Below are positions 5,076 to 17,188 of a stretch of 24,713 nucleotides of DNA, piece after piece (position 1 is the first letter of the stretch; each line of letters opens with the position of its first letter). The position numbers and the translations under genes are program-made. Source of the DNA: a virus; the IMG/VR virus record IMGVR_UViG_3300031749_000034, positions 1 through 24,713 of that record, one strand, 5' to 3'. The notes beneath the pieces were generated by a model. The model made no database searches and had not been told where the DNA came from. It saw nothing but the letters and a program-made list of their open reading frames with translations.

Positions 5076-8000
5076 TCAGACTCCGTTCGCGGTCCAGCCG
5101 GCGTTGCCGCTGACGCGGTTGCCGGCATTGTCAAAGAGGTAGATCGAGAACCCGGTCGGGTTCGGCACGTCCTGGAAGTCGTAGACCGCCTGCACCGGCG
5201 TCGTGCCCTGCGGGGTGACGGAGATCGAGCTCACGTCGATGAAGCTCTTGTTGAAGGTAACCGGCGTGCCATTCGCATCGCTGGCACTGCAGACCGCTGT
5301 GCCGTTATCCGAAATCTGCTTGACCTCGAGCTTGATGTTCAGCCCGGTGATCCGGAGCAGGTCACCCGCCGCGCCCGCGACATTCAAGATCACCCGGACA
5401 TAGCGGAATGCGGTGGCATAGACGCGGGTCGTGTTCGCATACGTGGTCCAGGTGGAATTGTCCGGTGATGTCTCGATGGTGACCGTGAGGCTCGGTGCGC
5501 CGGCGATCACATTCGACGAGGGGGTCACCACGATCTGCGAGGCGGCAAGGGTGGTGCCGTAATCGATTGCCTCGGTATAGGTCGCCGATCCCGGCGAGGG
5601 TTCGATGAACAGCGTATCGCCGGCGTTCACCTGGTCCTGCGGCGTGCTCCAGCCCTGGTTGGTGAAGTGCGCCTCATAGGTCGTGGTGATGTCGACCGGC
5701 GCGACCAGCGAGCCGTTGGTATCGGGGGCGGCATTCGTCTTGGTGCCGGCGAAGGTGCTGTCCAGATTGTAGTGCAGCACGTAATCCGGCGGCTGCGCCA
5801 CGGTGGCCGTGATCGTGTAGGCCGGCCCGACATTGCCCGCCGTATCCACCGGCGAAATGCTGAATGTGTAAAGGCCGCCCTCCGTCTCGAAGACGGCGGC
5901 GAACAGGCCGTTGATATTGCCGATCGCCTGGCCGTCCTGGCTGAGCACATAGTGATCGATCGGCAGCGTTCCGGCCGCCGCCGTCCATTTCAGCAGCACA
6001 TTGTTGTCGATCACCGAGACGGTCGCGCCGGTGACCTGCGGGAAGACCGCGGTCAGTGACACCGATCCCTGCGAGACCCGGTTGCCACCGATATCGACCG
6101 CGACCACGGTGAAGGTCTGCGCGCCGGCCCAGTTCACCTTCAGGGTGAAGGTCGTGCCCTTCACCGTGCCGATCACGGTGCCGGCGCCATTCGCCACCTC
6201 GTAATGGTCGATCGCCAGCGGGCCGATGACCGCATTCCAGGAGAGCACGGCATTGTCGCCGGCGAAGCGCGCGGCAACGGTGAGTGCCGAGGCGGCCGGG
6301 ATCTGAACCGAGACCAGCGCAGCATCGGCCGAGTAGACGCCGCTGGTGCTGAGCGCCTTGACCAGCCAGTCGGCCGCATCGACGAGGTCGTTGGTGCCGG
6401 CAACGAAGGTGGTGGCGTTCACCTGCCCGGCGACACTGGCCGTGTCCCATGACGCGCCGCGGCGGATCTCGTAGGCGGCGATATCGACATCCGGGTTCCG
6501 CGCCCAGGACAGGATCAGCCCGTTGTTCGGATCGAACCCGTAGGTCAGGCCCTGCACGTCGGATGGCGGCGCCTGCTTGCCGAGCAGCTGCACCGTCACC
6601 TCGGTATAGCTCATGCTGAGCTTCTGCTGCGGCCCGAAGGTCCAGACCCGGACCACATAGGAGCCGGGATCCGCCTTGCCGACGGTGAAGCTGTTGCTCG
6701 GCGTGTTGGCATAGTTCCAGTTGCCGGAATCCTTCTGCCAGGCGACCTGGTAGCCGATGCCGCCTGACACGTCCGGCCAGGAGATTTCCGCCATCGAGAA
6801 GATCGTCGACTGGAAGGCGTAGAGCGATTCCTGAACGATCACGGCGGATGGCGAGGCGGGCGGGATGGTCAGATCGGTAATCGCCTGCTCGACCAGCGCC
6901 GCGCCATCCTCGATCGCCGCATACTTGCTCGGGTTGTGCGCCAGCGCGGTGATGGTGAACTCGCCCGGCTGGCTCTCGGTGATCTGGATGACCCGGAACA
7001 GCTGGGCGGCGATCGCCGGGATCTCGAGGATCCAGAGTGCCTGTGCCTGCGGCGCGCTCGCCAGCGCAGCGGTCAGGGAGATGACCGGCGCATTGGTCAC
7101 CGAGGTGTCGATCCCCTGCACCGTGCCGCTCTCGATCGTGCCGTCGAGCGCAATGACCGAGAGCGTGCCGCCGGTGGGATCGATTGCCGCGCCGTTATTG
7201 TCGACCAGGGCGTGATCGAGGGTGATGGTGGTGGTGGTCGCAGCGCTGATCCGGCCGCCCATGCGCTGGCCGGCGCGCACGGTGTCGGCGACCTTGATGA
7301 TGTCGCCCGGCCGCACCATGGCGGCGTCGAGCCCGACCTTGAAGCTGACCGTCTCGGTCTCGTACTGCTCGCTGTAGAGCAGCCACTGCCCGACCCGATG
7401 CGCCTGGCCGCGCGAGGTGCAGCCAAAGGCAGTGACCTGGGCGACGATCGCGCCGTATTTCTGGATCAGGGCGTCGTTGCCGACATACTCGACATACTTG
7501 GCGCCGAGGTCGTTCATGTTCTGCCAGGTCACCATCGCGATGGTGTGGCGCGCCTTCAGGCTCGATCCGGTATAGGTGAAGTCGCCGTCGATCACGTTGG
7601 CATTGGTGAACAGCGCCACCGGATCGGCGGGCGCGTCCTGCACCGCGGTGACGGTGCCGGTCGACCAGAACGGCATGCCGCGGAACACGCTGGCGAGATC
7701 CTGAATGACCTTGAACGCCGCCTGCCGGGTGTTGATCCAGCAATTGCAGGTAAAGCGCGGTTCGGTCCCGCCGAACCCGTCCGGCACGAGCTCGTCGCAA
7801 TACTGCGCGATCTGGTAGAGCGACCACTTGTCGATCTGCGAGGCGACAACGAACTGGCCGAGCCCGTATCGCTCATTGGTCAGCAGGTCGTAGAAGCACC
7901 AGGCCGGATTGTCGGTCCACGCGATCTGGAAGGTGCCATCCCAGGCGCCGCTATAGGCGCGGGTCGCCGGATCGTAATTCGAGGGCACCTGCACCCGGAG

Positions 8001-8768
8001 CAGCTTGCAGCGATACAGCCGCTGCGGGATCCGCGAGAAGTTGGCGGCATCGACCCGCAGGGCGGCGATCGCGCTGTTGGGATAGGTCAGCTTCGCATAG
8101 ACGATCTCGGTATACGAGTCCCAATAGACCTGGTCGGCGATGTAGCCGGTGGTGTCGTGGTCCGGTGTGATGCGACGCAGCCGGATCTCCCACGGGCCGC
8201 CGCCGGGCAGGCTGATCACATAGCTGCGCTGGTAGTTCGCCGAGGCCTTGCCGCTGATCGTGTCGTTGACCCGCTGCACCCAGCCGCCGCCATTGGTGTT
8301 CACGTCGATCGCGATATTGACTGAGGTGCCGGAGACATCGCCGTTCTTGGTGTTGGTGTAGCTGAGCTGCGGGATCAGCACGATCACCCGTACGGCGTCG
8401 ACATTGGTGGTGGTGATCGTCCGGGTGACCGAAAGGGTCTGCTTGACCTCGGTCTGCACCGCGATCGTGTTGTCGACCTCGCCGAAGCCGGGGATCCAGT
8501 CCTGCGCCTGCGAGCCCGGCACGAAGGCGAAGGACACGCCCGAGTAGTTCATCGTCCCGTCGCTGTTCTGCAGCGCGGTGCCGTCGAGATAGACGCCCTG
8601 CATGCCGCCGACGAGGCCCTCGATCTCGCCTTCGCAGATGAGGTCCATCACCTGGGCATAGGCGCGGCTGGCCAGCGTGTCCTTCTGGATGTTGACGCCG
8701 CCGCCGCCGCCTTTGCCGCCACCCTTGCCGCCGCCGCCGGAACCACGGATCGGGAGCAGCGCGTTCAT
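5076..8768 (-). CDS. J: Host-specificity / central tail tip protein J
   Basis: This 1230-residue protein is the lambda gpJ counterpart, the central fibre at the tail tip that contacts the host receptor. The N-terminus has the Gly/Lys-rich linker (residues 10-24), then DTLASRAYAQVMDLICEGEI, a signature of gpJ-like proteins. A long stretch with the tip-attachment domain follows (NPAWCFYDLLTNERYGLG around residues 287-304). After about residue 640 there are several fibronectin-type-III-like units (for example ISWPDVSGGIGYQVAWQKD and ILSWARNPDVDIAAYEIRRG). The C-terminal 250 residues are strand-rich and unassigned, probably the receptor-binding part. The length is close to lambda J (about 1130 residues). 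Its ATG overlaps the stop of I (ATGA). Confidence 0.93.
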   Translation of the reverse strand: MNALLPIRGSGGGGKGGGKGGGGGVNIQKDTLASRAYAQVMDLICEGEIEGLVGGMQGVYLDGTALQNSDGTMNYSGVSFAFVPGSQAQDWIPGFGEVDNTIAVQTEVKQTLSVTRTITTTNVDAVRVIVLIPQLSYTNTKNGDVSGTSVNIAIDVNTNGGGWVQRVNDTISGKASANYQRSYVISLPGGGPWEIRLRRITPDHDTTGYIADQVYWDSYTEIVYAKLTYPNSAIAALRVDAANFSRIPQRLYRCKLLRVQVPSNYDPATRAYSGAWDGTFQIAWTDNPAWCFYDLLTNERYGLGQFVVASQIDKWSLYQIAQYCDELVPDGFGGTEPRFTCNCWINTRQAAFKVIQDLASVFRGMPFWSTGTVTAVQDAPADPVALFTNANVIDGDFTYTGSSLKARHTIAMVTWQNMNDLGAKYVEYVGNDALIQKYGAIVAQVTAFGCTSRGQAHRVGQWLLYSEQYETETVSFKVGLDAAMVRPGDIIKVADTVRAGQRMGGRISAATTTTITLDHALVDNNGAAIDPTGGTLSVIALDGTIESGTVQGIDTSVTNAPVISLTAALASAPQAQALWILEIPAIAAQLFRVIQITESQPGEFTITALAHNPSKYAAIEDGAALVEQAITDLTIPPASPSAVIVQESLYAFQSTIFSMAEISWPDVSGGIGYQVAWQKDSGNWNYANTPSNSFTVGKADPGSYVVRVWTFGPQQKLSMSYTEVTVQLLGKQAPPSDVQGLTYGFDPNNGLILSWARNPDVDIAAYEIRRGASWDTASVAGQVNATTFVAGTNDLVDAADWLVKALSTSGVYSADAALVSVQIPAASALTVAARFAGDNAVLSWNAVIGPLAIDHYEVANGAGTVIGTVKGTTFTLKVNWAGAQTFTVVAVDIGGNRVSQGSVSLTAVFPQVTGATVSVIDNNVLLKWTAAAGTLPIDHYVLSQDGQAIGNINGLFAAVFETEGGLYTFSISPVDTAGNVGPAYTITATVAQPPDYVLHYNLDSTFAGTKTNAAPDTNGSLVAPVDITTTYEAHFTNQGWSTPQDQVNAGDTLFIEPSPGSATYTEAIDYGTTLAASQIVVTPSSNVIAGAPSLTVTIETSPDNSTWTTYANTTRVYATAFRYVRVILNVAGAAGDLLRITGLNIKLEVKQISDNGTAVCSASDANGTPVTFNKSFIDVSSISVTPQGTTPVQAVYDFQDVPNPTGFSIYLFDNAGNRVSGNAGWTANGV

Positions 8769-9661
8769 GGCGCCGCTCCGACATAGACGCTCTGGACCGT
8801 CGACCCGGGCCCGTAGGAGCCGTCGCTCTCGACGGGATTGCAGATGACCTCATAGGGGCCGGGGCCCGGCACCGCGACATAGACCGAGGTGCCGTTCGTG
8901 CGCGGCGCCGTCACCGGCCCGAAGCCCTGTCCCTGCACGGTGACATCGTAGCCGATCGCCAGGCCCGCCGGGTCCCAAGAGGCGTAGACCTGGTTCGATG
9001 TCGCCCCGCCGGCCGCCGTGGTGGTCTGCACGATCGCGGTGAGACCGGGAACGCCGGTCTCGCTGGTCGGCACCTGATCGACCGTCACCTCGGCCGAGAT
9101 CACCGCCGAACCGCAGAACATCTCGCCATAGCCGATCGGGATGGCCGCGCCCTGGGCCGCGACGTTGACACTGCCCTGGATGGCGTAGCTCTGCTGGTTT
9201 GTCTTCGGCTGGGGACTGAGCAGGTTGGAGATGCCGCCGAGCACCAGGGCGAGGCCGATCGCGCCAATCTGCGCCGCCATAGCGCCACTCAGGAGGGAGC
9301 CCGCACCCATGCCAATCGGGCCGAGTGCGATCGCTGCGGCGATCAGCACGACACCAGCGATGATCTCGAAGATCCCGCCCTTCCCGGCGCCGGCGATCAC
9401 CGGCACGATCCGGATCGTCGCCTGCCCGCTCGGATTGCCCAGCTCCTCGAGCGGAACATCCCGCCGATCGACCAGGACCCGATAGCCGACGCCACGCTGG
9501 TCGGACTCGATCAGATGCCGGCGGAACTCCGGGAAGTTGGCACAGAGCGCGCGGACGGCCTCGGCCGGATCCGAGATCGCGAACCGGTGCTCGCGGCCGA
9601 ACCGCTTGGCGAGTTCGCCGCCCAGGCGGACGGTTTTAAGCGGTGGTGAAGCGCAGGACAT
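8765..9661 (-). CDS. I: Tail assembly protein I with extra FN3-like C-terminus
   Basis: This 298-residue protein is the counterpart of lambda gpI. Residues 8-90 form the ubiquitin-like domain (KTVRLGGELAKRFGREHRF and onward), residues 98-148 are Gly/Ala-rich and hydrophobic, and residues 158-190 carry IQGSVNVAAQGAAIPIGYGE, the usual gpI ending. Lambda gpI stops near there. This protein continues for about 100 residues with a fibronectin-III-like unit (QVYASWDPAGLAIGYDV to the end). gpI acts with gpK and gpL in assembling the tail tip. The ATG at 9659-9661 lies 26 nt inside K and has only a weak upstream GGAAG, so the true start could be a few codons later. Confidence 0.85.
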   Translation of the reverse strand: MSCASPPLKTVRLGGELAKRFGREHRFAISDPAEAVRALCANFPEFRRHLIESDQRGVGYRVLVDRRDVPLEELGNPSGQATIRIVPVIAGAGKGGIFEIIAGVVLIAAAIALGPIGMGAGSLLSGAMAAQIGAIGLALVLGGISNLLSPQPKTNQQSYAIQGSVNVAAQGAAIPIGYGEMFCGSAVISAEVTVDQVPTSETGVPGLTAIVQTTTAAGGATSNQVYASWDPAGLAIGYDVTVQGQGFGPVTAPRTNGTSVYVAVPGPGPYEVICNPVESDGSYGPGSTVQSVYVGAAP

Positions 9662-10358
9662 GGGTGGTGTGCTTCCGGTAATAGCCGCCGAACACGTCCC
9701 GCGTGCTGAGCCGGTTCGACAGGTGGTGAAGGATGGTGCCGTCGCCCAGCCAGATCGCGGCGTGGTTGGGCACCGGCGCGCCGATCTGCATCAGCAGGAC
9801 ATCGCCTCGCTCGAACTCGTCCGCGCGCTTGTCGTCAGAGATCTGCACCCGCCGCCAGCCGTCGCGCTCGTACCAGTCGAGATAGAGGTTCTGCCCGCGC
9901 AGCCACCATTCGTCGTCGCGGCCGCGATCGGGCAGCACGATACCCCGCTCGAGGCGATACCAGTCGCGGATCAGCGCGTAGCAATCGAGCACGCCATGCG
10001 ACCAGGTCCGCCCGACCAGCGGCGCGACGTATCCGCTGGGCTTCAGCTCGCGCCAGGTGGCGGCCGGGACGCTGACGATGTGCCACGGTAGCCCCGAGGC
10101 CTCGCATGCCACACGATCGGCCTCGCTGGGTTCCGGCGGCAGGTTCGGGTGGGAATGCACCACCGCGAGGATCTCGCCGCGGCACTCCGCCGCCGCATAG
10201 TCCTGCGGATCCAGGATGAAGTGTCCGTGGCCGGTCGCCAGGTTGCGCGCGGGCACATAGACGTGCCGTCCACGCTCAACGATCAGTAGGCCGCAGGCCT
10301 CAGCGGGGAAGCATTCGGTGGCGTGGCGGAGTGCCGCAAGGCGCCAGGGCTCGTTCAT
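9636..10358 (-). CDS. K: Tail tip protein K: JAMM peptidase plus NlpC/P60 domain
   Basis: This 240-residue protein is the counterpart of lambda gpK. The N-terminal domain is a JAMM/MPN metallopeptidase: E20, H68-x-H70, S78 and D81 (HSHPNLPPEPSEAD) give the zinc and catalytic set. The C-terminal domain is NlpC/P60, with C126 in DCYALIRDWY and H199 in NHAAIWLGDG as the catalytic Cys and His. Such proteins process tail components or cut peptidoglycan during infection. ATG 10356-10358 overlaps the stop of L (ATGA). The much longer upstream frame overlaps the L coding sequence and is rejected. Confidence 0.92.
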   Translation of the reverse strand: MNEPWRLAALRHATECFPAEACGLLIVERGRHVYVPARNLATGHGHFILDPQDYAAAECRGEILAVVHSHPNLPPEPSEADRVACEASGLPWHIVSVPAATWRELKPSGYVAPLVGRTWSHGVLDCYALIRDWYRLERGIVLPDRGRDDEWWLRGQNLYLDWYERDGWRRVQISDDKRADEFERGDVLLMQIGAPVPNHAAIWLGDGTILHHLSNRLSTRDVFGGYYRKHTTHVLRFTTA

Positions 10359-12583
10359 GCGCGTGTCAGCCCGGCAGCCGGGAAGCCGCCATAGGGGAGG
10401 GGATTGTTCGCACCAAAGCGCACCTGGCAGCTGCTCAGCCGCTTGCCGCAGACATCCTGCGCCGCGCTGCCGACCGGGTTGTCGTTCGTGTCGAAGTAGG
10501 CCGTCCCGGTGTAGCCACACTCGGCCGAGCGGTAGATCCAGGAGCAGACATTCTGCACGATCGCCCGCCGGGGCAGTTCCATCCCCTCGAAGTCGAACGC
10601 CGCGGCAAGCTGGAACTCGACCAGGTTGCGGTTTTCGACGGTGCGCTGCTCGATGTAGAAGATGTCGTCGGGAAACTCGGCGGTTGGATCCGCGGTGGGA
10701 TTGGTCCCTGAGGCAAAGTTCGCCGCGTCGAGGAATTTTGCCAGGGTCCGCTTGCGCGTGATTTTGCAGCCGACCAGGTCGCCATAGGTGAGCACGAGGG
10801 CGGTGATCGTGCCGAGCACATTGGCAATCTGGATCTTCGGCCGGGGCAGCAGCCCCCGCCCGTTCCACTCGAAGCCCTCAGCCTGGACCGGCACCGCGGC
10901 ATAGGTGTTGCCCTGCCAGACCACCGGTTGCCGCAGCCCATTGGTGCCTCCGTGGTAATAGACCACCGGGCCGCCGACTGGGCCCATGTCGAGCACGAAC
11001 ATCTCGATCACCGCGCTCGGTGCGAGCTTCTGGATCTCCGAATTGATGGTCGCGCGCGGCGGAGCGGCGACGGCCGGCGCGCTGCCGGCGCCAGCTGCCG
11101 CGCCAGCTCCTGGCGCAAGCGAGATGCCCTCTGTGACCGCAGGCGAACCGCCGGCGCCCGTGGCACCACCAGAGCCCGGGGAGAGGCTCGTGCCGGTTGC
11201 CGCCGCCGCGGTGACGGATGGAGCCTCGCCCGCGCCGGAGGCGCTCCCGGACCCGGGCGTAAGCTCGGTGCCCGCGGCGACGGTCGGCTGCCCGCCGGCA
11301 CCAGCGCCGCTGCCGCTCGCCGGTGAGAGATCGGCGCCTGCCGTGACGGATGGCGATTCCCCGGTTCCCGTGGCTTGGCCGCCGCCGGCCGTCTCGCCTC
11401 CGCCGACAGAAATGCTCGGCTGCTCGCCGGCTCCCTCAGCACCGCCCGCGCCCGCCGCGAGCTCGGCGCCGATCGTGACGGATGGCGTCTCGCCGGTGCC
11501 GATGGCTGTGGCCGCCGCAGGCGAGAGATCCGCGCCCTCGGTAACCGCCGGTTGACCGCCCGCGCCAGCGGCGTCGCCGGCGGCAGGTGAAAGATCGGTG
11601 CCGACCGTGGCGGATGGCGATTGCCCGGCCGCCGCCGCATCGCCGCCGGCGGCAGAAACGTCCGTTCCCGCCGCGACGGCTGGCTGCTGGCCAGATCCGG
11701 CAGCAGCTCCGGTGCCGGCCGCGAGATCCGCACCGGCAGTGACGGTGGGACTTTCGCCGGCGCCGGTCGCAGTGCCGGCGACAGGATCAAGCGTGACGTT
11801 GCCGCTCGATGTTGTCCCTGATCCGAAATACAACCGGCGCCGCACCCGTGCGCGCAGCATGTGAAAGGGGGACCCCGTGACATACTTGATCTCGTCCTGC
11901 GACAGTGCACGCGGAGCTAAAAATAGCGCGATAATTTTGCCGTCTAAGAAAGAGGTCTGATCTGCAATGTCGTAGCCGGTGCTTTGGACAATGCCCGCAT
12001 TGGTAAAGGCTGTTGTTACCCCAGAACCATTAAAGGGGATTGGGTTGCCGTCCATGTACGAGGCGACAGTGTTGTTTGAAAAAGTCCCGGCAACGACGTG
12101 GTCATATCCGTCAAAAAAGGAAACTGAACCAGTAATGTCGGTTGGATTTACTAGATTTCCTGCATCATCCCGATAAACGACAACTGGGAGCGTTCCATTT
12201 GGGGAAATCGCCAGCTTGAGGATATCGTTGCCGGACGGCGCGCGTTCGCAATAGAATACATTTCCGTAGCCCGACAGAGCCGCGGCATTGGCTATAGCGA
12301 CGACAGTCCACTCGGGCAGCCCGCCGAGGTATGGACCATTCCCTATCGTGAGGCCGGACTGGGAGTTGGGCGTTAATAACGCAGGCCCAAACGAAGAAGA
12401 AATGACTGCCGAGGGGGAGCCATACGGCGACATCGCGGTGCTATTTTCCGCGACGTCGATGTTGGTGACGCCCGGCAGCAAGATCCGGGAAAATCCGAAT
12501 GGATTGTCGCCAAGCTCGACCGGCTCGGTGGGCACCATGCGCGGACCAAGGCGAAGACTTCGCCGGCGAAAGAGGGCGCCCAT
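10355..12583 (-). CDS. L: Enlarged tail tip protein L: LamG-like domain, 22-residue repeats and Fe-S gpL domain
   Basis: This single 742-residue ORF has three parts. Residues about 50-250 look like a LamG/concanavalin-type sandwich: EWTVVAIANA, GYDHVVAGTF and FLDGKIIALFLAPRALSQDE are typical strands, and the end (FHMLRARVRRRLYF) resembles phage LamG endings. Residues 265-509 are eleven 22-residue Gly/Ala/Pro repeats. Residues 510-742 are a full gpL domain (TINSEIQKLAP to the end). Four cysteines in it, C680, C689, C712 and C719, have the spacing expected for the Fe-S cluster of lambda gpL. Lambda gpL is only about 230 residues, so this protein is about three times longer. No start codon or ribosome site occurs at the gpL junction, so the fusion looks real. 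The start follows the upstream stop by six bases, with AAGG just before it. The LamG part is less GC-rich than its surroundings. Confidence 0.9.
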   Translation of the reverse strand: MGALFRRRSLRLGPRMVPTEPVELGDNPFGFSRILLPGVTNIDVAENSTAMSPYGSPSAVISSSFGPALLTPNSQSGLTIGNGPYLGGLPEWTVVAIANAAALSGYGNVFYCERAPSGNDILKLAISPNGTLPVVVYRDDAGNLVNPTDITGSVSFFDGYDHVVAGTFSNNTVASYMDGNPIPFNGSGVTTAFTNAGIVQSTGYDIADQTSFLDGKIIALFLAPRALSQDEIKYVTGSPFHMLRARVRRRLYFGSGTTSSGNVTLDPVAGTATGAGESPTVTAGADLAAGTGAAAGSGQQPAVAAGTDVSAAGGDAAAAGQSPSATVGTDLSPAAGDAAGAGGQPAVTEGADLSPAAATAIGTGETPSVTIGAELAAGAGGAEGAGEQPSISVGGGETAGGGQATGTGESPSVTAGADLSPASGSGAGAGGQPTVAAGTELTPGSGSASGAGEAPSVTAAAATGTSLSPGSGGATGAGGSPAVTEGISLAPGAGAAAGAGSAPAVAAPPRATINSEIQKLAPSAVIEMFVLDMGPVGGPVVYYHGGTNGLRQPVVWQGNTYAAVPVQAEGFEWNGRGLLPRPKIQIANVLGTITALVLTYGDLVGCKITRKRTLAKFLDAANFASGTNPTADPTAEFPDDIFYIEQRTVENRNLVEFQLAAAFDFEGMELPRRAIVQNVCSWIYRSAECGYTGTAYFDTNDNPVGSAAQDVCGKRLSSCQVRFGANNPLPYGGFPAAGLTRA
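11057..11791 (-). repeat. Tandem 66-bp coding repeat (eleven units) in L
   Basis: Residues 265-509 of L divide into eleven units, nearly all exactly 22 residues. Unit nine has four extra and the last has 21. The consensus is roughly L-S-P-A-A-G-x-A-x-G-A-G-x-x-P-x-V-T-x-G-A-D. The units have diverged in sequence while keeping the period, with a GAG step, a Pro at place 15 and a Val at place 17. It probably forms an extended or beta-roll-like stalk holding the LamG domain away from the tail tip. Confidence 0.88.
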
Positions 12584-13578: not shown

Positions 13579-14043
13579 TCACGGCGTATGGGTGTCGGAG
13601 ATCCAGCCAGAGGCGGAGGGCGTCACTGTCAGCGCGCCGCCCTGGCCGACAAGATTCACGCCAGCGGCAAGCGCGGTGTCGAGATCGACGTGCCCGACGA
13701 TCAGGTCCGTCGAGGCGAGCGACGCGCCGGCCCGCTTGAGGATGTAGAGGTAGCGCGCCGATCCGCTGTAGCTCGCCCAAGTCGGCGCGGACGATGTGAT
13801 CGTGACGACGCCGCCGCTTTCGCTCGGCGCGGTGATCGTGATGACTTCGCCCCCGACAGTGTAGCCGTTGCCCGTCGCCTCTTCGTCGGCGGACACGTCC
13901 GCATAGGTCTTGTCCGTCGCGGGCGCCGGCGTCTTGGCCGCCGTCACCAGAATGCCGACATAGGTATCGGTGGAGAAGTTGAAGGCGCCATCGTAGAGCT
14001 CGAGGCGGAAAGCGTCTTCCTGTGTGAAAGTGCCAGCGGCCAT
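13579..14043 (-). CDS. Putative virion structural protein, tail-tip insertion cassette
   Basis: This 154-residue beta-rich protein starts MAAGTFTQEDAFRLELYDGA and contains TDTYVGILVTA and TYADVSADEEATGNGYTVGG. This resembles a broad class of phage structural proteins (decoration or tail-tip) that begin with short TFT...K/L..G strings. The match is loose. The start has a strong AGGAG six bases upstream (in a 47-nt AT-rich gap, 14044-14090), unlike most genes here, which are translationally coupled. It is the first gene of the extra block between M and L. Confidence 0.6.
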   Translation of the reverse strand: MAAGTFTQEDAFRLELYDGAFNFSTDTYVGILVTAAKTPAPATDKTYADVSADEEATGNGYTVGGEVITITAPSESGGVVTITSSAPTWASYSGSARYLYILKRAGASLASTDLIVGHVDLDTALAAGVNLVGQGGALTVTPSASGWISDTHTP

Positions 14044-14090: not shown

Positions 14091-14456
14091 TCATGGTTCG
14101 GCGACCTGCTCGAACTTGCCTGCCACGGTCCACAGATACGCGGGCGCGCCCGGCGTGCCCTGCCCGTGCGTCGGGATCTTGGTCCATTGCCGGCAGACGA
14201 ACATCATCGGCGCCGACGCGCCGGGCGGCTGCCAGGCGAAGGATTGCAGCGCGCCCGCCGCGGCCAGGAAGGCATCGATCTCGCCGGCCTCGGCGTCGCT
14301 GCGATCGCGGAAGGTGACATCCCAGACCTGCAGGTCGGCATTGATGCCGAACTGCACCCGCTGCTCGTAGCCATCGCCGAACTTGGCGACGCGCACGTTC
14401 GGCTTATGCGTGACCTTCGCGGCGAAGTCGGGGATCCAGGTGAAGCTCCCGCTCAT
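14091..14456 (-). CDS. M: Minor tail protein M
   Basis: This 121-residue protein is the counterpart of lambda gpM, which joins the tape measure and tail tube to the tip. The sequence shows the family pattern: F.W.PDFAAKV near the N-terminus, VRVAKFGDGYEQRVQFGI, then VWDVTFRDRSDAEAGEIDAF and FAWQPPG before the C-terminal strand. The length is near the usual 110-120 residues. Its ATG overlaps the tape measure stop as ATGA. In lambda, L follows at once, but here three other genes intervene. Confidence 0.9.
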   Translation of the reverse strand: MSGSFTWIPDFAAKVTHKPNVRVAKFGDGYEQRVQFGINADLQVWDVTFRDRSDAEAGEIDAFLAAAGALQSFAWQPPGASAPMMFVCRQWTKIPTHGQGTPGAPAYLWTVAGKFEQVAEP

Positions 14457-17188
14457 CGATAGGAGGTCCCGTTCGTGGCCAGCAGGCCGCCGTCGCGCTG
14501 CAGCTGGATCATTCGGCGGTCGATCATGTGCTGAAACTGCCGATGCATCTCGCGGGCCGCCTCGGCCGGATCGAACCCGGGCGCGCCGTTATGGTGGATC
14601 GTGGTGTGCATGTGGAACACCGATCCTGCTCCTCCGCCGCCGCGCATCTGCACCGGGATCGAGCGGCCGTCTGGCAGCGGCACATAGGCCTCCGGCATCC
14701 GACCCTCGCCGAACAGCGCGACCTGCGGCGAGCTGGCCACACCGCCGCCGGCGTAGGCATTGAGCGGCATCGGCCCCATCGGCGTCATGATGCCGCCGTT
14801 GGCGAAGCCGATCAGGCTGCCAATGTCGAGCAGCCCCTTCTGCAGCAGGGATCCCGACCAGGAATTCGCGATGGTCGACCCGATCCCGGCCAGCCCCTTG
14901 AAGGTGTTGACGATGCCCAGCCCGCTCTTGAGGCCGCCGAACAGGTTCCCGACGATCGAGCCGCCGCCGGTCGGCATCGGCAGGCCGGCCGTTCCCATGC
15001 CGCCCATGCGCGACGGCAGAACGCCACCCGCGCCGCCGCCGGGCGTCGCGCCGGAGGTGAAGCCCGCCAGGCTCTGAAAAAAGCTGAGGGCCGAGGCCTG
15101 CGGCGTGTTGAAGCCGAGCATCCGACCCATTCCCGACGCCAGCGGCGCCATGATGGCATCCTTCACCACCATGCTGGTCAGATCGGTGAAGATCCCGCGC
15201 GCAAAGGATCGCAGCGTGGTGCGCTGGCCTGTCAGCGCCTTGGTCAGTTGCCCGGTCAGCCCCGTCCAGGTCTGGCTCCAGATCGCCTTCACCTGGCTCG
15301 CCGTCTGCTGCGAGGACGTGACGAAGCCGCTGAACGCCGCCGCCGTTCCGGCCTGCGCGGTCTGCGGCGCGGCAGCTGCGCCGGTCGCGTCCGCCACCGG
15401 CAGGCTAGTGAACTGCCCCGCCTGCTGATGCTCAAAGGCGGTGATCTGCGCCGCCTGCGAAGGGTATTTCGCAATCTCCTTGCGCGCCCAGGCCTCGAGG
15501 CTCAGCTGATCGGCGAGCAGCTTCCGGGCCAGTGCCGCGCTCTTCACATGCGAGGTGTTGGCCCTGATCGAGGCGATCTCGTTCTGCACCTCGGCGCCCT
15601 CGAGGCGAAGCTGGGTGTTGAACCGCGCATCCGCCTGCGCCGCATGCAGGGCGCCCGAGGCATGCTCACGCAGCGCGCGGGTGTGTTCGTGGACCGCCGA
15701 AGAGGTGCTGCGGTGGCCGGCGATCCCCGCCGAATGCGCGCCGGCATAGCGGCGGTCGATCTGCGCGACCGCTTCGGACCAGTGCGACTGGATATAGAGC
15801 GCCGTCGGGTCCTGCGGGTTCGCAGCCAGCGCCTGCTTCACCTGCAGCTGCAGCGCCGCCACATGCTGGCGGGCGAGCGCCGGGCCCTTCAGCATCGATT
15901 GCCGGAACCGGGTCAGCGACTGCTCGGCCGCGATCCCCTGCTCCTGCACCTGCGCCTTGTGCGCCGTGTCCGCCGCCGCCTTGCGGTGCTGCTGCATCTC
16001 CGCTTCCAGCTTCGCGCGCTCGGCCAGAAGCCCCTCCTGCCGCCGGAACGGGTTCAGGTGGTTCGCCATGCCGCCGCCCTTCAGCCGCAGGTCGATCTCG
16101 GCGATCTTGTCGGCAAAGGTCTGCGCGCGGCCGAAATTCTTCAGCGAGTCCCAGGCGGAGACGATGACATCGCGCACGCCAGACCAGGCCTCAATCAGGT
16201 ATCCGAGGTTCTTGGGAGCGTTCTCGCCGAGGCTGCGATACAGCGCGTTGGCCGTGACCTCCTCGGCCTTCTCCTTGTGCCCCTGCTGCTCGAGCTGGGC
16301 GATGTAGTCGTACTGGGCGAGGCTCAGGAAGTGATAGGAGCGGTTGGCGTTCGCCGCCCACTTGGCGACGCCATCGCTCATCTTCGCGAAGTCGGCGATC
16401 ACCTTCGCGGATTTCTCGCCGGTGACCTGCCCGAACAGGACCGCGGCACGGGTGACTGCGAACAGCGCCTCGCCGGAGACCGATCCGGTGCGGATCAGCG
16501 CGATCATCGCCGCCCGCGCCTCGCCGATCGAGCCCGGGACCTCGCGACCGATCACCTCGGCCATGGTGTTGAACTGCCCCGCGGTGATGCCGGCATAGCC
16601 GCCGCTCATCTGCAGCGCGTGGCCGAAGCGGACAGTCTCCAGTTCGCCCTCGACAAAGGCTGCGGTAAGCACAACTGCCGCAACGGCCCCCGACGCTATA
16701 CCGCCCGCCATTGCGGAAAACATGACAGTCGTCAGCTCCGCCCGCTCGGCCAGCACCATCAGCGACCCGCCGAACCGGCTGTAATTCCCCATGATGACGG
16801 ACTCATGGAACAGCACGATCAGCTCGCGCATCACCCCGCCATGCTGCAGAAAGCCCTTGATACCGCCTTCCGCTTCCTTTGCTGCATGGCCGATTCCGCG
16901 GAATGCGCTCGCGCCGGCGACCTCTGCCTCGCGCCACTTCGAGATCACCGGCCCCAGCGTGCTGCCGAGCCCGAGTTGCTCCGCCCGGAGCCCGGCGAGC
17001 TCGGCCTTCGTCTTGCCGAAGGATTCCGCCTGGCGGAGCGTGGTCTGGGCGAAGCGCTGCTGCTGGCGGTTCAGCTCGACGGTCGAGAGGTTGAGCTTGC
17101 CGAGCTCCGCCTGCAGCGCCTGCACCTCGCGCGTGCCGGTGACGCCGGCGACAATGGCAACTTCGGCGATTTCCGGTGTGCCGCTCAT
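14453..17188 (-). CDS. H: Tape measure protein (H)
   Basis: This 911-residue protein sets tail length and is probably ejected into the host. Its N-terminal 110 residues form a helical coil (EVQALQAELGKLN and onward). Hydrophobic segments lie at about 119-135 and 153-179 (TTVMFSAMAGGIASGAVAAVV). Long helical stretches (for example residues 390-470) follow, and the C-terminus is rich in Gly and Pro (TPGGGAGGVLPSR), ending in a His-rich segment (VFHMHTTIHHNG) common in lambdoid tape measure ends. At the known ratio of about 0.15 nm per residue, a tail near 135 nm is expected. That figure is a rough inference. Start overlaps the GT stop (ATGA). Confidence 0.92.
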   Translation of the reverse strand: MSGTPEIAEVAIVAGVTGTREVQALQAELGKLNLSTVELNRQQQRFAQTTLRQAESFGKTKAELAGLRAEQLGLGSTLGPVISKWREAEVAGASAFRGIGHAAKEAEGGIKGFLQHGGVMRELIVLFHESVIMGNYSRFGGSLMVLAERAELTTVMFSAMAGGIASGAVAAVVLTAAFVEGELETVRFGHALQMSGGYAGITAGQFNTMAEVIGREVPGSIGEARAAMIALIRTGSVSGEALFAVTRAAVLFGQVTGEKSAKVIADFAKMSDGVAKWAANANRSYHFLSLAQYDYIAQLEQQGHKEKAEEVTANALYRSLGENAPKNLGYLIEAWSGVRDVIVSAWDSLKNFGRAQTFADKIAEIDLRLKGGGMANHLNPFRRQEGLLAERAKLEAEMQQHRKAAADTAHKAQVQEQGIAAEQSLTRFRQSMLKGPALARQHVAALQLQVKQALAANPQDPTALYIQSHWSEAVAQIDRRYAGAHSAGIAGHRSTSSAVHEHTRALREHASGALHAAQADARFNTQLRLEGAEVQNEIASIRANTSHVKSAALARKLLADQLSLEAWARKEIAKYPSQAAQITAFEHQQAGQFTSLPVADATGAAAAPQTAQAGTAAAFSGFVTSSQQTASQVKAIWSQTWTGLTGQLTKALTGQRTTLRSFARGIFTDLTSMVVKDAIMAPLASGMGRMLGFNTPQASALSFFQSLAGFTSGATPGGGAGGVLPSRMGGMGTAGLPMPTGGGSIVGNLFGGLKSGLGIVNTFKGLAGIGSTIANSWSGSLLQKGLLDIGSLIGFANGGIMTPMGPMPLNAYAGGGVASSPQVALFGEGRMPEAYVPLPDGRSIPVQMRGGGGAGSVFHMHTTIHHNGAPGFDPAEAAREMHRQFQHMIDRRMIQLQRDGGLLATNGTSYR

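Follow-up and report, generated by a model that had tools for sequence, protein, structure and literature searches.

The window, that is, the whole 24,713-bp stretch of DNA analysed here, is the IMG/VR virus record IMGVR_UViG_3300031749_000034 from an uncultivated, lambda-like phage. Its tail genes are all on the minus strand and in the lambda order, H-M-L-K-I-J, with three small cassette genes, A, B and C, between M and L (Table 1). The gene at the position of L is a fusion. It is read without an internal stop from an ATG at 12583, which follows the stop of gene C after a 6-base gap, to a stop at 10355, giving 742 codons; the plus-strand translation of 10355-12583 meets several stops. The 742-residue product is divided into three regions: a predicted jelly roll at about residues 22-245, eleven repeats at residues 269-510 and a full gpL domain at residues 511-742. 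An earlier note on this DNA had described a single 742-codon frame carrying LamG, stalk and gpL, and this description is borne out by the frame, the family profiles, the folds and the repeats.

Table 1. Tail genes of the window and features of the fused gene, with the basis of each assignment.
Feature	Position	Strand	Basis
gpJ central fibre	5076..8768	-	FNIII-A_GpJ E 1e-39, Phage-tail_3, phrog_1727
gpI	8765..9661	-	phrog_32 tail assembly protein E 2.2e-57; Lambda_tail_I below gathering score
gpK, JAB and NlpC/P60	9636..10358	-	family profiles; start overlaps the stop of the fused gene
Fused tail-hub gene, 742 aa: LamG, 22-aa repeat stalk, gpL	10355..12583	-	frame and family profiles
Complete gpL domain, residues 511-742, hub domain I and Fe-S domain	10358..11053	-	family profiles, PDB matches, model
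Stretch with four Fe-S cysteines, C680, C689, C712, C719	10427..10546	-	lambda-like spacing; invariant in both gpL alignments
Stalk, eleven units, 22-aa period, residues 269-510, consensus GxGxxPxVTxGxxLxP	11054..11779	-	lag identity
Predicted LamG/ConA-like jelly roll, residues 22-245, low GC3 over core	11849..12520	-	Pfam Laminin_G_3, AF2 model, PDB comparison
SPFHML, residues 238-243, at the aligned position of NPWQLF, the motif closing stand-alone LamG domains	11855..11872	-	alignment; degenerate, Pro alone kept
Cassette gene C, 155 aa	12590..13057	-	phmmer: of 11 matches (E<=0.05), 10 lie immediately before a LamG gene in other phages
Cassette gene B, 166 aa	13067..13567	-	order and size only, as in stand-alone LamG loci
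Cassette gene A, 154 aa, phrog_644 family	13579..14043	-	phrog_644 E 2e-12; phmmer E 7.3e-10 to L308:4070-4744
gpM, distal tail ring	14091..14456	-	Phage_min_tail E 2.5e-25
Tape measure protein (gpH position)	14453..17188	-	position and size

The C-terminal region is a complete gpL, including the four-cysteine Fe-S set claimed for it in the earlier note. Phage_tail_L (PF05100) matches residues 536-738 over profile positions 3-204 of 206 (E 5.7e-74), and the gpL equivalog TIGR01600 is covered from position 1 to 221 of 224 with 282 bits against a cut-off of 70.75 (E 2.6e-84). The cysteines at residues 680, 689, 712 and 719 have a spacing of 9-23-7, the same as that of the lambda Fe-S cysteines Cys173/182/205/212 (PMC10721106). 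The nearest solved sequences are the F2-pyocin hub protein (25vf, E 2e-59) and lambda gpL (8iyk, E 6.7e-40). Structure prediction of residues 510-742, proposed earlier as a check, gave the lambda gpL fold: an AlphaFold2 (AF2) model for which 27 gpL relatives were supplied is confident over most of its gpL part, and this part aligns with chain L of 8iyk over 197 residues with Z 18.5. Confidence in the full-length model is low and the overall rmsd is 19 A, so that the aligned residues include parts that cannot be superposed as one rigid body. The match to 9l9p has Z 14.2. By homology, the gpL part would form a trimeric hub ring in the tail tip of the virion, as in lambda.

The N-terminal region is assigned with moderate confidence, and at the level of fold, as a LamG/ConA-type jelly roll. 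Laminin_G_3 (PF13385) matches residues 77-233 of the full-length protein (E 7.3e-7, 29.9 bits against a gathering score of 27.6) and residues 76-233 of the N-terminal piece taken alone (E 1.6e-7, 32.1 bits). The full-length model mentioned above did not resolve this part, for want of LamG relatives. A second AlphaFold2 model from 31 rows, including 30 stand-alone phage LamG proteins, has a mean pLDDT of 60 and a pTM of 0.62, with residues 39-87 below a pLDDT of 50. In a comparison with the PDB, its residues 22-245 match ConA-like domains, among them lectin-like domains and CBM40, with Z of 14 to about 16; 2fhr is at the upper end (Z 16.4, rmsd 3.1, 202 aligned). Prediction of residues 40-255, another check put forward in the earlier note, thus yielded a model with a lectin-like jelly roll. 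Many LamG domains have ligands other than carbohydrate, and it is plausible that this one binds host sugars. As a query on its own the LamG region found no relative in IMG/VR, GTDB genomes or INPHARED and only weak, unrelated matches in 289 genomes, while two motif-length LamG queries, one of them a generic sequence, returned nothing useful from INPHARED.

Between these two domains lies the stalk, for which the eleven repeats counted in the earlier note were recovered as eleven units with a 22-residue period. Identity at lag 22 is 0.443, compared with at most 0.274 in 500 shuffles. The copies have diverged at the DNA level. Exact DNA repeats that involve the stalk reach 15 bp at most, and a misjoin through repeats is less likely for that reason. 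The stalk found no match in INPHARED or the PDB in searches with a low-complexity filter that may hide relatives.

The junction between stalk and gpL leaves no room for a separately translated gpL, as had been noted previously. There is no ATG, GTG or TTG in frame between residues 251 and 525, and starts at residue 525 or later would truncate the gpL domain. Close relatives (L084, L172 and L173) begin their gpL with an ATG only a few codons ahead of this point and, taken together, these observations indicate that the normal start of L seems to have been replaced in the fused gene.

To see how rare the fusion is, gpL was sampled as 339 distinct cores from viral contigs and GTDB genomes. The start lies within 15 residues of the domain in 301 of these, an N-terminal extension of 16-40 residues is present in 16 and one of 41-66 residues, mostly a single EPxWP module, in 19; three cores are cut by contig ends. 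An obligatory extension of more than 100 residues was found in 0 of the 339, and this is also the outcome of the search of phage L proteins for N-terminal LamG extensions that the earlier note had called for. Similarly, none of the gpL-family frames from 784 genomes, taken from one class and one order, is longer than 360 residues; in 49 viral records with a gpL, Laminin_G_3 has two matches, neither of them in the gpL frame; and an NPWQ-like motif is absent from 240 gpL loci. In the open-access literature, no paper was found on LamG fused to gpL. The fusion is rare; because these counts rest on samples, they do not prove it unique, and because no relative in the sampled data carries the same fusion, its conservation cannot be shown. 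The recurrence of short extensions makes the gpL N-terminus a natural attachment point.

Several other arrangements of gpL were seen in this sample. The EPxWP module, 63-66 residues long, lies in frame ahead of gpL in most of L018-L043, L052, L060-L073, L217, L225, L238, L242 and L251; in the one member scanned, the module region has no family model match. Peptides of about 16-27 residues with a GYW or similar Tyr/Gly-rich pattern precede gpL in L209, L218, L233, L241, L244, L249, L186 and L004. In an Ideonella MAG (L128:5668-6681) an Ala/Gly-rich in-frame stretch with the repeated sequence KPLAGAAAGQASAG stands before gpL; it is a shorter stalk with no LamG, and internal starts are possible. 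At the other end of the domain, the gpL frames at L230:455-1807 and L248:329-1786 continue for about 225-245 residues beyond it and are possibly gpL-gpK fusions. In L104, L109, L114, L121, L126, L139 and loci like them, long apparent extensions were rejected as fusions: they resemble overlapping frames rich in Arg and Gly, beside a gpL that has its normal start.

Proteins that resemble the arm do exist as separate genes. A DNA pattern for the NPWQLF motif, which is itself a search handle, fetched 47 IMG/VR loci, and the LamG proteins encoded there are built alike. They begin with a short N-terminal part, in which RR...QPQ is frequent; next come a jelly roll of some 220 residues and the motif, and many carry a tandem-repeat tail behind it. 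Where this tail is at least 110 residues long it is significantly periodic, mostly at 20-25 residues, in 18 of 29 proteins, some of which are near-duplicates. An HMM of 30 non-redundant stand-alone proteins matches residues 31-233 of the fused protein with E 4e-7, compared with 0.055 for the best of 1000 shuffles, and on this sequence comparison its LamG part is akin to them. One stand-alone protein (L299) had no match in INPHARED. Lambda-type tail genes were not found by tblastn in the stand-alone loci; those phages are therefore probably of another kind.

LamG with repeats of 20-25 residues is thus a stand-alone protein in many unrelated IMG/VR phages, usually as the final gene of a short row. 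In most loci the row before it opens with a gene that is phrog_644-like or similar, continues with one of about 100-190 residues (mostly 145-180) and closes with one of 135-185 residues whose end lies at the LamG start. The same row is present in the window between M and L, with its final gene fused to L. In pairwise phmmer comparisons with shuffled controls, genes A and C, and not B, were separated from their shuffles: gene A matches two neighbours of stand-alone LamG genes (E 7e-10 and 6e-8), and gene C has 11 neighbour matches at E<=0.05, ten of them directly upstream of the LamG gene, where its shuffles average 0.16 such matches with a maximum of 3. The individual E-values of gene C are modest (best 1.5e-4; one shuffle reached 1.8e-4 by chance), so that its kinship is carried by the pattern and not by any single match. 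With profile HMMs of the three neighbour classes (A, B and C), the window genes did not stand out from shuffles, and in hhalign C alone had a match, a weak one. As the LamG-repeat protein and its upstream row occur elsewhere as a unit of separate genes, the row in the window can be read as an adhesin cassette whose last gene has been fused to L.

Some further features were seen in the window and in other loci. The M-L interval of two Pandoraea prophages (L125:4773-6001 and L134:4752-6001) holds a Gly-rich fibre-like gene followed by a small gene, which makes the interval look like an insertion site for adhesion genes. In the window, residues 1036-1114 or so of gpJ (5076-8768), near its C-terminus, give a weak F5/8 type C-like match below cut-off (E 0.019), a possible further adhesion domain. 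In gpJ homologues at L013:7057-7500 and L018:7046-7480, a Hint/intein-like domain lies within the Gly-rich N-terminus, with PT-HINT or Hint above the curated cut-offs and Intein_splicing below.

The reading that we favour, and consider probable, is that the product of the fused gene is a single virion protein in which an adhesin arm is attached to a gpL hub subunit, the arm coming from a cassette acquired between M and L. Here, a mobile row of genes (A phrog_644-like, B, C and D, the last being LamG with 22-residue repeats) would have been acquired between M and L, and the end of D would then have been linked, in the same frame, to the opening codons of L, with loss of the L start codon. Composition suggests that the LamG part is a recent acquisition: GC3 is 0.55 in the LamG core (residues 75-235), 0.74 in the stalk and 0.85 in gpL; genes A, B and C have values of 0.71-0.83, and those of the tape measure gene, M, K and J are 0.86-0.89.

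The same GC3 step inside the gene would equally be expected of a chimera, and the fusion could be an artefact of assembly or sequencing in which a separate LamG-stalk gene and a gpL gene were joined in the contig, either by collapsed repeats or as a chimera. The record is a single metagenomic contig, the fusion is in no sampled relative and LamG-stalk genes are normally separate. However, the repeats run in one frame from LamG into gpL, so that two genes cannot have been merged by one erroneous indel, and exact repeats touching the stalk do not exceed 15 bp. In addition, the borders are tight, as in a tail operon, with gene C just upstream and the K start overlapping the stop, and the gpL start codon is gone at the junction. 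Of the sequencing error joining two genes that the earlier note had named as its refutation, the single-indel form is consequently excluded, and an assembly chimera is unlikely.

It is somewhat more conceivable, although still doubtful, that one chain is made in which the LamG-stalk serves a structural or assembly role, such as decoration or protection of the tip, and does not bind glycans. A LamG/ConA fold is by itself no proof of sugar binding, a point also made by the authors of the LSH1 study for its galectin-like Dit decoration (PMC13243795), and among the neighbours of stand-alone LamG genes are some with matches to head or virion structural families. Against this, the best fold matches of the model are lectin-like or carbohydrate-binding domains (a sialidase lectin-like domain and CBM40), Dit decorations of such kind bind host cells where tested (PMC7291167) and a long low-complexity stalk fits reach better than packing. 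Least probable is cleavage after synthesis, leaving virions with bare gpL and the LamG-stalk lost or secreted; the Ala/Gly-rich stalk would be easy to cut and gpL lacks such an arm in all sampled relatives, but shorter N-terminal gpL modules recur in other phages.

If the favoured reading, a gpL hub subunit with an adhesin arm, is correct, the gpL part would build into a three-fold hub ring as in lambda, so that each virion would carry three arms anchored at their C-termini: flexible stalks of 240 residues extending from the gpL N-terminus with a LamG domain at each free end. These arms would exit near the gpM/Dit ring. In the T1 homologue of gpL, gp36, the N-terminal helix extends up towards the distal tail protein Dit (PMC11945409), and by this direction an N-terminal arm would leave the hub at the level of Dit, above J. 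The LamG domains would then probably make weak, reversible contact with glycans of the host surface before the receptor is engaged by J. Receptor binding in lambda-like phages is already supplied by J, so that an extra arm need not be essential. The affinity of CBM-type Dit decorations for host cells is below that of the true receptor-binding protein (PMC7291167) and, by likeness to these decorations, reversible contact with polysaccharide ahead of J would be the likeliest role of the arm.

A more speculative proposal, offered tentatively and rated as rather unlikely, is that A-B-C-D is a portable module for adhesion, and that its LamG-repeat protein is held by the C-terminus with LamG free. 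The fusion to gpL would fix the polarity and the docking on the hub ring, and would show how the stand-alone counterparts in many uncultivated phages are mounted. This polarity would be the opposite of that of classical side fibres, which are attached by the N-terminus. Were these readings true, the M-L interval and the gpL N-terminus would be a docking site for adhesion modules, and the fusion would predict how the phage LamG-repeat proteins, a large and little-studied class, are oriented.

The fused protein can be compared with four known kinds of protein. With lambda gpL and T1 gp36 it shares the C-terminal 232 residues, the family models, the cysteine spacing, the fold and the H-M-L-K-I-J order; lambda gpL, at 232 residues and with no LamG, stalk or N-terminal extension, corresponds to the last part only, as the earlier note had stated. 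The gpL proteins with short N-terminal modules (63-66-residue EPxWP, 16-27-residue GYW) likewise have an extra in-frame module before gpL, but this comprises tens of residues compared with 510 and has neither LamG nor a long stalk, L128 having a short Ala/Gly repeat stretch. The stand-alone LamG proteins (L270, L275, L276, L280, L285, L298, L300, L308 and others) have a LamG of similar length, the same repeat period and A- and C-type genes upstream; they differ in ending after the repeats or a short tail with no hub fusion, and their NPWQLF motif is degenerate in the window. Being fused to gpL, the window protein is not counted as a plain member of this kind.

The fourth kind comprises the 'evolved' Dit and Tal proteins, which are tail-tip proteins with carbohydrate-binding domains in siphophages of Gram-positive hosts (PMC7291167), together with the Dit of LSH1 and its galectin-like decoration (PMC13243795). 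The shared feature is a domain of carbohydrate-binding type built into an essential ring or hub protein of the siphophage tip. Here, however, the carrier is gpL and the predicted jelly roll is N-terminal on a stalk of eleven repeats, whereas theirs are loop-inserted. The fused protein is for this reason not a member of the 'evolved' Dit/Tal group and at most would work like one. The arm had previously been called an uncommon way to reach host glycans, and this holds for the fusion itself; the strategy is less unusual, since lectin-decorated Dit and Tal are known (PMC7291167). Thus, lectin-decorated hub proteins are already known and what is new is a lectin-type arm on the gpL of a lambda-like phage which, if true, would extend the idea of the lectin-decorated hub to gpL, beyond the Dit and Tal of phages of Gram-positive hosts.
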